This document shows positions 20,853 to 24,026 of a stretch of 41,531 nucleotides of DNA, in pieces; position 1 is the stretch's first letter, and every line of letters starts with the position of its first letter. The notes below the pieces were generated by a model, which saw nothing but the letters and a program-made list of their open reading frames with translations, was not told where the DNA came from and did no database searches. The DNA comes from an uncultured Actinomycetes bacterium (GTDB lineage: Bacteria > Actinomycetota > Actinomycetes > Nanopelagicales > Nanopelagicaceae), in NCBI GenBank assembly GCA_903863015.1, contig CAIPAI010000017.1, positions 1-41,531 of the forward strand. The letters are read 5' to 3'. A program made the position numbers and the translations under genes.

Positions 20853-20872
20853 CCCTCAGACAGGAGATGCAC

Positions 20873-21271
20873 GTGGCTGCTAGCACCACGCGTAAGACCG
20901 TAGCCAAGAAGCGCCCAGCCAAGAAGGCTGCAGCGAAGAAGGCCCCGGCCAAGAAGCGCACAGCAAAGAAGCGCGCCGCTAAGAAGGCTCCAGCCAAGAA
21001 GGCTGCTGCCAAGAAGCGCGTAGCAAAGAAGCGCCCAGCGAAGAAGGCTGCCGCTAAGAAGCGCGTAGCAAAGAAGCGCCCAGCGAAGAAGGCTGCCGCT
21101 AAGAAGCGCGTAGCCAAGAAGCGCCCAGCGAAGAAGGCTGCTGCTAAGAAGCGCGTAGCCAAGAAGCGCCCAGCGAAGAAGGCTGCTGCCAAGAAGGCTG
21201 CTCCAGCTAAGAAGCGTGCTGCTAAGAAGCGCGTTGCAAAGAAGCGTCCAGCCAAGAAGGCCGCTAAGTAA
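20873..21271 (+). CDS. Lys/Ala/Pro-rich histone H1-like DNA-binding protein
   Basis: A 132-residue protein made almost wholly of Lys, Ala, Arg, Pro and Val, in PAKKA and RVAKK units like the C-terminal tails of eukaryotic histone H1 and mycobacterial HupB. There is no folded HU domain, so it is a free-standing basic tail expected to bind and compact DNA or bind RNA. The GTG at 20873 is chosen because AGGAG stands 6 nt before it; the ATG at 20867 directly touches that site. Nearly every lysine is AAG. It has its own terminator and probably its own promoter, consistent with high expression. Long open frames on the opposite strand here are by-products of the repeat. Confidence 0.88.
21011..21190 (+). 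repeat. Four tandem 45-bp units in the histone-like gene
   Basis: Units at 21011, 21056, 21101 and 21146 each encode [15 protein letters not shown]. They differ only at a few silent third positions, so the protein repeat is exact while the DNA copies have started to diverge. Confidence 0.92.
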
Positions 21272-21328: not shown

Positions 21329-22201
21329 ATGAGAAATGCACTTACTCCAGGAGTTCTCTCCCCTCGCCGCCTCGTGCCGACCAGCATCAAAGCTCCCGAG
21401 TATGTAGGAAAGAAAGCCCCGACTCTCCATAAAGATGGCCATATCCCTAGCCTGGAGATAGTGGAGAAGATGCGCATCGCCGGACGCATTGCAGCCGAAG
21501 CGATGAATGAAGCCGCCAAAGCAATCGCCCCCGGCGTGACCACCGACGAGATAGATCGCATCGGTCATGAGTACTTACTTGACCACGGCGCCTATCCCTC
21601 CACCCTCGGATATCGCGGCTACCCAAAATCTCTCTGCACTTCACTTAATGAAGTCATCTGCCATGGCATCCCTGATTCCACTCGCATGGAAGAGGGCGAC
21701 ATTCTCAACATCGATATCACGGCATTCATCCATGGCGTGCATGGGGACACCGACGCCACCTACCCGGTAGGAGAGATCAGTGAAGAAGCCCAATTACTGA
21801 TCGAACGGACTCGCGAAGCGCTCAACCGTGCCATCGCCGCCGTGAAGCCGGGGCGGGAGATCAACGTGATCGGGCGAGTGATCGAGGCATACGCCGGTCG
21901 ATTCGGGTACGGCGTGGTCAAAGACTTCACTGGCCATGGCATTAATACGGCCTTTCATAGTGGACTGATCGTGCCGCACTTCGATGCCCCGTATCACGAC
22001 ACCGTGATCGAAGAAGGCATGACCTTCACTATCGAGCCGATGCTCACACTGGGAAGTATCGATTATGAAATTTGGGATGACAGCTGGACGGTAGTCACCA
22101 AGGATCGAAAGTGGAGCGCGCAATTTGAACACACTCTCTTGGTGCATGCAGATGGCGCCGAGATTTTGACACTTCCCGGGACACTTCCTGGGACGGCTTA
22201 G
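21329..22201 (+). CDS. map: Type I methionine aminopeptidase
   Basis: A 290-residue metalloenzyme that removes the initiator methionine. The five metal ligands are recognisable: two Asp in NIDITAF and HGDTDAT, His in FTGHGI, Glu in FTIEPM and Glu in QFEHT. About 40 extra N-terminal residues, seen in the longer actinobacterial form, precede the core. The ATG at 21329 is preferred to a TTG at 21317, which lies immediately next to the terminator. No ribosome site is present. The last 4 bases overlap the tail of the convergent MarR gene. Confidence 0.95.
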
Positions 22202-22683
22202 GAGCCGCAGGTGTCGCTCTTTAAGAGGTTTTGAATTGTCGTGAAAGAACGCGCGATCACAGCTTGATCTGCTGGGCTTAATACATCGGTAAAGGCCCGT
22301 CGCACGCTGGCCACGTGATCGGGCGCCGCTGCCACGATGGCCTGCAACCCTTTCTCTGTCATCACCGCGAAAGCTCCACGGCGATCATCGGGGCACTCTT
22401 CTTTACGGATCAATCCCGCTTGCTCCATCACCTTCATTCGGTGCGAGAGACGCGAACGCGAGAGTAGAGCGGCTTGCGCGAGTTCGCTCATCCGCATCCG
22501 GCGCTCCGGCGCATCCGAGAGCTGGGCCAGGACTTCATAATCGGCCATCGAGAGGTCGTGGCCGTCGAGGGCCTGCTCGAGGAGCTCCATGAGGCGACGG
22601 CTGGTGAGGATATAGGCCCGCCAGGCTTCCATTTCCGCAGGTGAGAGCCAGCGAGGTGGCGCCTGCGTGCTTGCCTTATTCAT
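22198..22683 (-). CDS. MarR family transcriptional regulator
   Basis: A 161-residue winged-helix repressor. The helix-turn-helix runs through [30 protein letters not shown] and the wing through [20 protein letters not shown], both typical of MarR. Long helices at each end make the dimer. The ATG at 22683 is chosen because GAGGGGG precedes it by 8 nt; the GTG at 22692 runs into that site. It faces yceI across a region with two palindromes, one over its own predicted start of transcription, so self-repression and control of yceI are likely. The inducer is unknown. Confidence 0.92.
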
Positions 22684-22706
22684 GCCGGACACCCCCTCAG
22701 GGTAGA

Positions 22707-22753
22707 AGTTGAATCTTCAACTACTTTACGCTACTTTAGTTGAACATTCAACA
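22707..22753. promoter_or_regulatory. Paired MarR operator palindromes between marR and yceI
   Basis: Site 1 (22707-22722) is a perfect palindrome, AGTTGAATCTTCAACT. Site 2 (22738-22753), AGTTGAACATTCAACA, differs only in the centre and last base. Centres are 31 bp apart, about three helical turns, so both sites face the same side of the DNA. The half-site is GTTGAA. Site 1 covers the expected marR transcription start and site 2 lies just upstream of the yceI -10. Confidence 0.85.
22723..22751 (-). promoter_or_regulatory. Candidate marR promoter
   Basis: TTGAAT (22746-22751), a 17-base spacer and TAAAGT (22723-22728) on the minus strand. The -35 lies within operator site 2 and the start point would fall in site 1, which fits self-repression. 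Confidence 0.45.
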
Positions 22754-22756
22754 AAC

Positions 22757-22764
22757 TATATAAC
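22757..22764 (+). promoter_or_regulatory. Candidate yceI -10 element
   Basis: TATATAAC lies just after operator site 2 and 21 bases before the yceI start. The -35 region would fall in operator 2. A GAGGA ribosome site follows at 22775-22779. Confidence 0.4.
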
Positions 22765-22785: not shown

Positions 22786-23328
22786 ATGAGCAACACCATC
22801 GCAGCCGGCACCTGGGCCATTGATCCCAGCCACTCTGAAATTTCATTCTCCGTACGCCACCTCATGGTGAGCAAGGTACGCGGGCACTTCACCAAGTTCT
22901 CCGGAAACCTTGTCATCGCAGAAGACAACACCAAGTCCAGCGTCACCGCAGAGATCGATGCGACAAGTATCGACACTCGCGATGAGAACCGCGACAACCA
23001 CCTTCGCACCAACGAATTCTTCGATATCGAAACACATCCCACCTGGACCTTCGCCTCAACCGCAGTCCGTACCGGCGGCAAGGGTGGTTACCTTGTAGAT
23101 GGCAACCTCACCATCAAGGGCGTCACCAAGCCTGTAGTTCTTGACCTCGAAGTTGCTGGCACGAGCACCGATCCTTGGGGAAACACCAAGGCGGGCTTCT
23201 CTGCTACCACCGTGATCAACCGCAAAGATTTCGGCGTTGAGTGGAATGCTCCACTTGAGACCGGCGGCGTCTTGGTCGGCGAAGAAGTAACTATCTCACT
23301 GGAAATCCAGGCAGCGCTTCAAGCCTAA
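22786..23328 (+). CDS. YceI family protein
   Basis: A 180-residue lipocalin-like beta-barrel protein. Typical motifs are WAIDPSHSEISFSVRHLMVSKVRGHF, the DATSIDTRDENRDNHLRTNEFFD region and the C-terminal NRKDFGVEWNAPLETGGVLVGEEVTI. Members bind isoprenoid quinones or similar lipids; several respond to stress. No signal peptide is present, so this one is cytosolic, as in many actinobacteria. GAGGA precedes the ATG at good distance. A neighbouring divergent MarR gene and operators indicate induction by a small molecule. Confidence 0.93.
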   Translation: MSNTIAAGTWAIDPSHSEISFSVRHLMVSKVRGHFTKFSGNLVIAEDNTKSSVTAEIDATSIDTRDENRDNHLRTNEFFDIETHPTWTFASTAVRTGGKGGYLVDGNLTIKGVTKPVVLDLEVAGTSTDPWGNTKAGFSATTVINRKDFGVEWNAPLETGGVLVGEEVTISLEIQAALQA

Positions 23329-23337
23329 TTCAACTAC

Positions 23338-23373
23338 CAAAACGGGATCTAGCTTCGGCTAGGTCCCGTTTTG
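23338..23373. terminator. Bidirectional terminator between yceI and the YkuD-like gene
   Basis: A 16-bp stem (left arm 23338-23353, right arm 23358-23373) with a TTCG tetraloop and one G-U pair. Four A on one side and four T on the other serve both directions, and the genes on each side converge on it. Confidence 0.92.
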
Positions 23374-23378
23374 TATTT

Positions 23379-24026
23379 CTAGGAAGTGCTGTGGGGCGAC
23401 GCGATTTGAATCATCGGGGCGGATTTTGGATCGAGCCATTTCAAGAGTTGCAATAACGTTTCTCGCTTTACGGCGATGCATCCAGTGAGGGGTTTACCTG
23501 TATCTAAGTGAAGAAAAATTGCCGCAGCGTGCGGCGAATCATTTGTTGTAATGGAAATTGCTAATGAGTAAGAGTCGCGATGATCAATAAGGTGTTCGCC
23601 TTCTGCAGCGTTCCAGGAACAATTCTTGAGACACTCTTGCCAGGTATCGTCCAAAGGAGAGAACGGATCTGCAACCCACCATGAAGCACTCGTGGCTCGG
23701 CGATACTTCAGAGCAGTCGCTGGCTTCTTTTCAAATCCAAAGGCGATACCAATAGGAAAAGTGCCTAGTGGAGTAGTTCCCGTATTTCGCACGCGATCAG
23801 CAATATTGACTAGGCCTTTGGTCGATGTGCGAGCCGTGAAGCTAGTGCCTACCTTCACCCACTTTGCGCTCCTCAATTCATACCGCGTGCCCACCGCTTT
23901 TCCTGACCCGTCAGCGGTAATTGAGATGACTTGACGAGTAGAGGCCGGCATTGCCTGCGGGGTTACGGGAGTGATGGGGGCGAGCATTCCCACCGCCAGC
24001 GCGAGCAGGCTCGCCTTAATGATCAC
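23379..24026 (-). CDS. Secreted L,D-transpeptidase-like (YkuD family) protein
   Basis: A 215-residue exported protein. A short hydrophobic signal sequence covers about 1-26 with possible cleavage after PQA. The catalytic region has His173 in IFLHLD and Cys183 in PLTGCIAV, the variant of the YkuD motif found in many actinobacterial proteins instead of SHGC. Such enzymes cross-link peptidoglycan or attach proteins to it through L,D bonds; activity of this branch is less studied. GGAGG directly touches the GTG at 24026, poor spacing, and an ATT codon 6 nt further would be better placed, so the exact start is uncertain. Confidence 0.78.
   Translation of the reverse strand: MIIKASLLALAVGMLAPITPVTPQAMPASTRQVISITADGSGKAVGTRYELRSAKWVKVGTSFTARTSTKGLVNIADRVRNTGTTPLGTFPIGIAFGFEKKPATALKYRRATSASWWVADPFSPLDDTWQECLKNCSWNAAEGEHLIDHRDSYSLAISITTNDSPHAAAIFLHLDTGKPLTGCIAVKRETLLQLLKWLDPKSAPMIQIASPHSTS

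Follow-up and report, generated by a model that had tools for sequence, protein, structure and literature searches.

Two palindromes lie in the gap between the divergent marR and yceI genes of an uncultured Actinomycetes bacterium and pose the question of which regulator is likely to recognise them, how they relate to the promoters of the two genes and what signal might release them. We addressed this in a stretch of 41,531 nucleotides (CAIPAI010000017.1, positions 1 to 41,531, the whole of which is referred to below as the window), in the remainder of its 1.94 Mb genome and in a set of 60 genomes that includes it. As judged from sequence comparison the two palindromes are very probably docking sites of the adjacent MarR repressor.

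Twin palindromes in the marR-yceI gap

The marR gene (22198..22692, - strand) encodes a 164 aa MarR-family repressor of the SCO3205/AbsC type (Pfam MarR_2, 3.5e-13) and yceI (22786..23328, + strand) encodes a 180 aa YceI-family protein (Pfam YceI, 3.7e-55; best PDB sequence 1wub, 1.4e-41) in which no signal peptide is evident by eye. The 93-bp gap between the marR GTG start (22692, -) and the yceI ATG (22786, +) contains both predicted operators, neither of which is assigned to a strand. Palindrome 1 (22707..22722, AGTTGAATCTTCAACT) is perfect over 16 bp and palindrome 2 (22738..22753, AGTTGAACATTCAACA) is perfect over a 14-bp core (GTTGAA-N2-TTCAAC) with an A/A outermost pair, the motif shared by the two being GTTGAANNTTCAAC. 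An earlier note on this DNA had described two near-identical palindromes between marR and yceI with centres 31 bp apart and the sequence bears out both statements, the distance being exactly 31 bp. That note also proposed looking at orthologous marR-yceI regions and elsewhere in the genome; both palindromes were found in the same place and at 31 bp in all four species of the genus represented among the genomes, and one further exact copy was found in the genome, upstream of a LigB dioxygenase gene.

The 14-bp core without mismatch occurs at three places in the 1.94 Mb genome and a reversed control pattern at none. With one mismatch allowed the core occurs at six places and the control at nine, so only exact matches are informative at genome scale and the one-mismatch sites of the genome (L004 and L005, which seem to lie within coding sequence, and a third, C57) were dropped. 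The third exact site, on contig C32, is located 16 bp upstream of the LigB-family gene (PF02900, 5.1e-31), whose product shares 35% identity with the annotated 4,5-DOPA dioxygenase YgiD of E. coli. The upstream neighbour of ligB is a BenE benzoate transporter gene, the stop codon of which is overlapped by the palindrome by one base.

Several other features of the window were observed in the vicinity of the pair. An ORF at 20867-21271 (+) consists almost wholly of AKKRxAKK-type repeats, is lysine/alanine-rich and appears histone H1-like by eye, with an ORF just downstream that we take to be methionine aminopeptidase-like. A GC-rich inverted repeat followed by a T-rich stretch (23339-23373) is terminator-like and lies between yceI and a convergent ORF (23379-24026, -), which is secreted-looking, has no Pfam match at E 0.001 and carries near its end a GCIAVKRE motif reminiscent of L,D-transpeptidases.

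The adjacent MarR is a homolog of SCO3205 and AbsC

The marR product is the single match in the genome at E<=1e-15 and its best PDB sequences are 3zmd (AbsC, 1.2e-37) and 3zpl (SCO3205-DNA, 4.7e-30), with identities of 46% to AbsC and 38% to SCO3205 over the aligned part. In the alignment the SCO3205 base contacts R72/S73/H77 correspond to R79/S80/H84 and the pocket residues W16/H119 to W24/H126, the latter being the pair that binds salicylate in AbsC, while the SCO3205 backbone contact Arg81 is replaced by Val88. Among 106 aligned sequences S80 is kept in 102, H84 in 92, W24 in 100 and H126 in 101, and the position of R79 is occupied by R in 48 and by K in 39. A cysteine just before the wing, Cys100 (window 22393-22395), is found in 96 of the 106, SCO3205 and AbsC included, and from this conservation could possibly be a thiol switch.

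SCO3205 of Streptomyces coelicolor binds its operators O3204 and O3205 in vitro with KD values of 1.3 and 2.4 nM and recognises the consensus TTnAAnnnTCAA (PMC3737563). Its two sites, described as independent, lie between sco3204, which encodes a class III extradiol dioxygenase homolog, and sco3205 itself, and binding was also seen upstream of sco5533, whose product is a homolog of a periplasmic polyisoprenoid-binding protein, and of the malonic semialdehyde reductase-like sco5049 (PMC3737563). We read sco5533 as YceI-like and sco5049 as nitroreductase-like. Both window palindromes fit TTnAAnnnTCAA upstream of the regulator's own gene, as TTGAATCTTCAA and TTGAACATTCAA. A site of the sco5049 type at a nitroreductase gene is present in one relative (G033, L117) and in the present genome all three exact sites stand at genes of other types. 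Since the sigma-E regulon of S. coelicolor also counts sco5049 among its members (PMC6767563), control of this gene may not belong to the SCO3205-type repressor alone, and the quinone reading proposed below does not account for that listing. Homology, the matching consensus and the shared types of target gene together place the operator system in the known SCO3205/AbsC operator/regulon type.

The motif accompanies marR and a recurrent set of genes

Across the 60 genomes the exact motif was found at 74 sites and the reversed control at 10. In a count of 72 sites, in which two G002 sites had been merged with duplicates from one contig, 60 lay beside regulon-type genes and 12 did not. The choice of neighbour families was made in part with the neighbours already in view, which makes this count circular for the doxX, pirin, monooxygenase, nitroreductase, VOC and F420-oxidoreductase genes. 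The regulon-type genes comprise marR, yceI, ligB, doxX, pirin, luciferase-like monooxygenase, nitroreductase, VOC dioxygenase and F420-oxidoreductase, each label having Pfam support on one representative, and the tests for pirin and doxX were repeated starting from the genes. One exact site (L049, genome G019) was observed between a divergent VOC dioxygenase gene, CatE-like by size, and a DinB-family gene.

Upstream of marR homologs of at least 52% identity a site with no more than two mismatches was present in 65 of 69 cases (shuffles 0.6, reversed motif 0) and upstream of more distant homologs in 7 of 36 (shuffles 0.1); the cut-off was set at two because at three mismatches the reversed control matches 33 of the 69 marR upstream regions. 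Exact upstream sites were found in 10 of the 18 regions examined for ligB homologs of at least 50% identity and in 11 of the 30 examined for yceI homologs, with none in shuffles in either case.

In related genomes the palindrome is also found upstream of DoxX and pirin genes, and seven of the 37 genomes of the family are without a MarR match (E <= 1e-15). Sites with up to two mismatches were present at 37 of 41 pirin and doxX genes where MarR is in the genome and at 2 of 12 in genomes that gave no MarR match (Fisher 2.8e-06, uncorrected for relatedness between genomes that are not independent). Three of the seven MarR-less genomes belong to one genus and two to another, so the independent events are fewer than the counts. 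The two exceptions are in genomes listed as 78% (G005) and 86% (G014) complete and the MarR gene may thus be absent from the assembly only; MarR is present and pirin lacks the site in G000, G001, G003 and G034. The sample consisted of the 30 of 51 pirin matches for which a locus was given, together with L219 from the own genome (29 inside the family and 2 outside it), and all 26 doxX matches (24 in the family, 2 outside), and the four out-of-family genes, one of which has a site, were excluded from both fractions. The pirin and DoxX-family genes of the own genome have no upstream site. As doxX gives no match at E <= 1e-15 in the genus and ligB at E <= 1e-30 is found only in the source species among its four, the regulon by exact sites consists of marR and yceI with the addition of ligB here.

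Predicted promoters are nested within the palindromes

The predicted -35 hexamer of yceI, TTGAAT (22709..22714, +), is the left half-site of palindrome 1 and is followed after a 17-bp spacer by a predicted -10 hexamer, TACTTT (22732..22737, +), which places the start inside palindrome 2. On the opposite strand the predicted marR -35, TTGAAT (22746..22751, -), is a half-site of palindrome 2 and is followed, again after 17 bp, by the predicted -10 TAAAGT (22723..22728, -), with a start predicted inside palindrome 1. Both -10 boxes would fall in the 17 bp that separate the two 14-bp cores. Each palindrome would thus supply the -35 of one promoter and the start of the other, so that both promoters share the same 31 bp. 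The overlap with both promoters that the earlier note had claimed holds as a prediction, with hexamers that differ from the TATATA-like stretch at the end of 22707-22764.

Among 87 site-gene pairs TANNNT lies exactly 17 bp after TTGAAN (offset +24) in 23, against about 1.6 expected per offset, and this spacing is found in 7 of 15 own-genus pairs and 16 of 72 others. The looser pattern TTGANN-17-TANNNT, which was chosen by eye, starts in the first near-palindrome at five loci found by gene-pair homology (L022, L074, L080, L100 and L108). The -35 rule does not hold throughout, as at marR genes of other genera TTGAAN and the -10-like box are separated by 15 bp (23 of 33 marR pairs) and a 17-bp spacer occurs only in the four pairs of the own genus. 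In the own genome the site at ligB seems to cover the start and not the -35. Another -10-like peak, immediately behind the palindrome (offset 14; 24 of 87 pairs), was rejected as the TA there is part of an extended palindrome, TAGTTGAANNTTCAACTA. In the relatives L058, L103, L010 and others the predicted ligB and marR starts are at or near the start codon and these mRNAs may therefore be leaderless.

Taken together we propose that a dimeric MarR of the SCO3205/AbsC type would bind with one dimer per palindrome, repressing yceI and marR itself and, from the third site elsewhere in the genome, the gene for the LigB extradiol dioxygenase. The half-site TTGAAN would double as a -35 hexamer, in palindrome 1 for yceI and in palindrome 2 for marR; with the repressor in place both promoters would be covered at the -35 and at the start, RNA polymerase could use no more than one of the two at a time, and an aromatic ligand (catechol, hydroquinone/quinone or salicylate-like) in the Trp24/His126 pocket would bring about repressor release. 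For this proposal as a whole, from MarR operators and repression of yceI, marR and ligB to nested promoters and release by an aromatic ligand, we estimate a probability of roughly 0.77. Palindromes, homology, residue conservation, regulon and co-loss with marR are computed here, nanomolar binding to such sites is in print for the S. coelicolor homolog, and binding in this organism, promoter use and ligand class are what we infer.

Alternative explanations for the sites and their spacing

The view of the earlier note that the neighbouring MarR uses the palindromes as operators for both divergent genes is strongly supported by homology, consensus, contacts, sites upstream of homologs and co-loss. 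Another regulator such as LexA could in principle be the one served, and in relatives some exact sites do lie between doxX and a DUF6504 gene or beside a gene that we take to be DinG-like. Against this, doxX and pirin promoters have lost the motif in genomes where no match to this MarR was found, the motif stands upstream of marR itself in the 65 of 69 close homologs and it matches the tested SCO3205 consensus. The actinobacterial LexA box also differs from the GTTGAA palindrome in half-site order, and we regard a regulator other than MarR as highly improbable.

A separate issue is why there are two sites. Starting from 92 distinct exact palindromes (97 records, five of them repeated sequences), a second site with at most one mismatch within 75 bp was found in eight distinct pairs against 0.035 in flank shuffles, seven of the eight at yceI (those of the own genus shared with marR) and one at doxX. 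It could be that the twin sites let two MarR dimers bind cooperatively on the same face of the DNA and that 31 bp, or three helical turns, has been selected to this end. This spacing is found without deviation in the four species of the genus and again, in another genus, at yceI in G033 (exact) and G008 (one mismatch), with marR elsewhere in both, and between two looser sites at L080; pairs at 21 bp (doxX, L060/L061), 22 bp (looser, G051) and 41 bp (one mismatch, G058) are also near whole turns. Looser pairs at 34 bp, in G006 and in the marR-yceI region of G016 from another genus, and at 27 bp (L074) are however off-phase, SCO3205 is described as having two independent sites (PMC3737563), and a single promoter with one site over its -35 and the other over its start already yields a distance of 31 bp. 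G006 has in addition a one-mismatch pair at 70 bp. Selection for cooperativity is on this evidence doubtful, and the promoter geometry accounts for the 31-bp spacing at least as well.

Likely inducer and physiological role

The earlier note suggested a quinone or related inducer from the binding properties of YceI proteins; such an inducer is plausible, although the better evidence for it is the regulon, with its LigB, DoxX, pirin, nitroreductase and VOC dioxygenase genes, and the conserved pocket histidine, and not YceI. As the regulon resembles known quinone/hydroquinone responses and the aromatic-ligand pocket is kept, a catechol, hydroquinone or quinone is by analogy the likely inducer, and the small gene set is probably a cellular defence against toxic quinones and catechols. 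The chief alternative is a salicylate-like acid, in which case the regulon would answer an aromatic acid (salicylate or benzoate, for catabolism or as a signal) and not quinone stress. This would suit the position of ligB directly downstream of the BenE benzoate transporter gene and the crystallisation of AbsC with salicylate (PMC3737563). DoxX, pirin, nitroreductase and YceI however constitute no catabolic pathway, the set matches quinone-/hydroquinone-induced sets and the BenE gene lies upstream of the operator, and we consider an aromatic-acid response rather unlikely.

The authors of the SCO3205-DNA structure stated that no function could be assigned and that there was no clear physiological theme (PMC3737563), and SCO3205 was still called a regulator of unknown function in 2022 (PMC9739823). 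The 60-genome comparison suggests a theme for this orphan, namely the detoxification of aromatic compounds, probably quinones, and in the open-licence literature, as far as its accessible text goes, we found no paper assigning quinone/aromatic detoxification to an SCO3205-type MarR. Our wider reading, for and against which we see the chances as even, is that the SCO3205 family is an actinobacterial quinone/catechol-stress repressor of a LigB-YceI-DoxX-pirin-nitroreductase set, with fully overlapping, mutually exclusive promoters inside its twin operators in this genus, and that the make-up of the set has converged with that of the Bacillota MhqR/YodB and E. coli YhaJ regulons. The operator type is already known; what is new is the physiological role proposed and the reading of the promoters as nested. 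The function of a regulator type described as well represented in sequenced actinomycetes becomes testable in a common laboratory strain, and these lake bacteria, meeting humic and plant phenolics, may carry such a defence, an ecology suggested by the names of related assemblies.

Comparison with known systems

The closest model is SCO3205, which shares with the present MarR its homology, the R/S/H base contacts, the consensus TTnAAnnnTCAA, two sites within one divergent gap and a regulon that takes in, besides the regulator's own gene, those for a LigB-type dioxygenase and a YceI-like protein. The two differ in that marR is here divergent from yceI whereas the SCO3205 gene is divergent from the dioxygenase gene, in that the operators here are perfect palindromes 31 bp apart, in that Arg81 is not kept and in the addition of DoxX and pirin to the regulon in the family. 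AbsC (PDB 3zmd) is the nearest solved structure by sequence and its salicylate-pocket Trp and His are kept. It has been linked to zinc-dependent antibiotic control (PMC3737563, PMC9739823), whereas no antibiotic-control genes were seen beside the sites here.

The Bacillota repressors MhqR, YodB, CatR and QsrR are of MarR type and act on ring-cleavage dioxygenases and nitro/quinone reductases, a content described for the quinone regulons of B. subtilis and S. aureus (PMC6798810) that resembles the set found here, although the main site here has a class III LigB instead. MhqR itself shows weak similarity to the present MarR (4e-07) and its operator, TATCTCGAA-aTCGAaATA, differs. By our own count, with a chain offset of 3, MhqR His111 aligns with His126, F39 with Y52 and E43 with A56. 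H111 and E43 are counted as shared with AbsC, and His111 of S. aureus MhqR is needed for methylhydroquinone sensing in vivo, the binding affinity of pocket mutants in vitro being no different (PMC12893000).

In E. coli the hydroquinone-induced set of YhaJ includes ygiD, yhaK, yhhW and yqjF, with YhhW being a pirin (PMC5031710). In our labelling yqjF is a DoxX-family gene. YhaK, like YhhW, is a pirin. YhaJ belongs to the LysR type and has a different operator, yet its regulon echoes the set described here in YgiD, which is 35% identical to the present LigB, in the pirin YhhW and in the DoxX-family yqjF.
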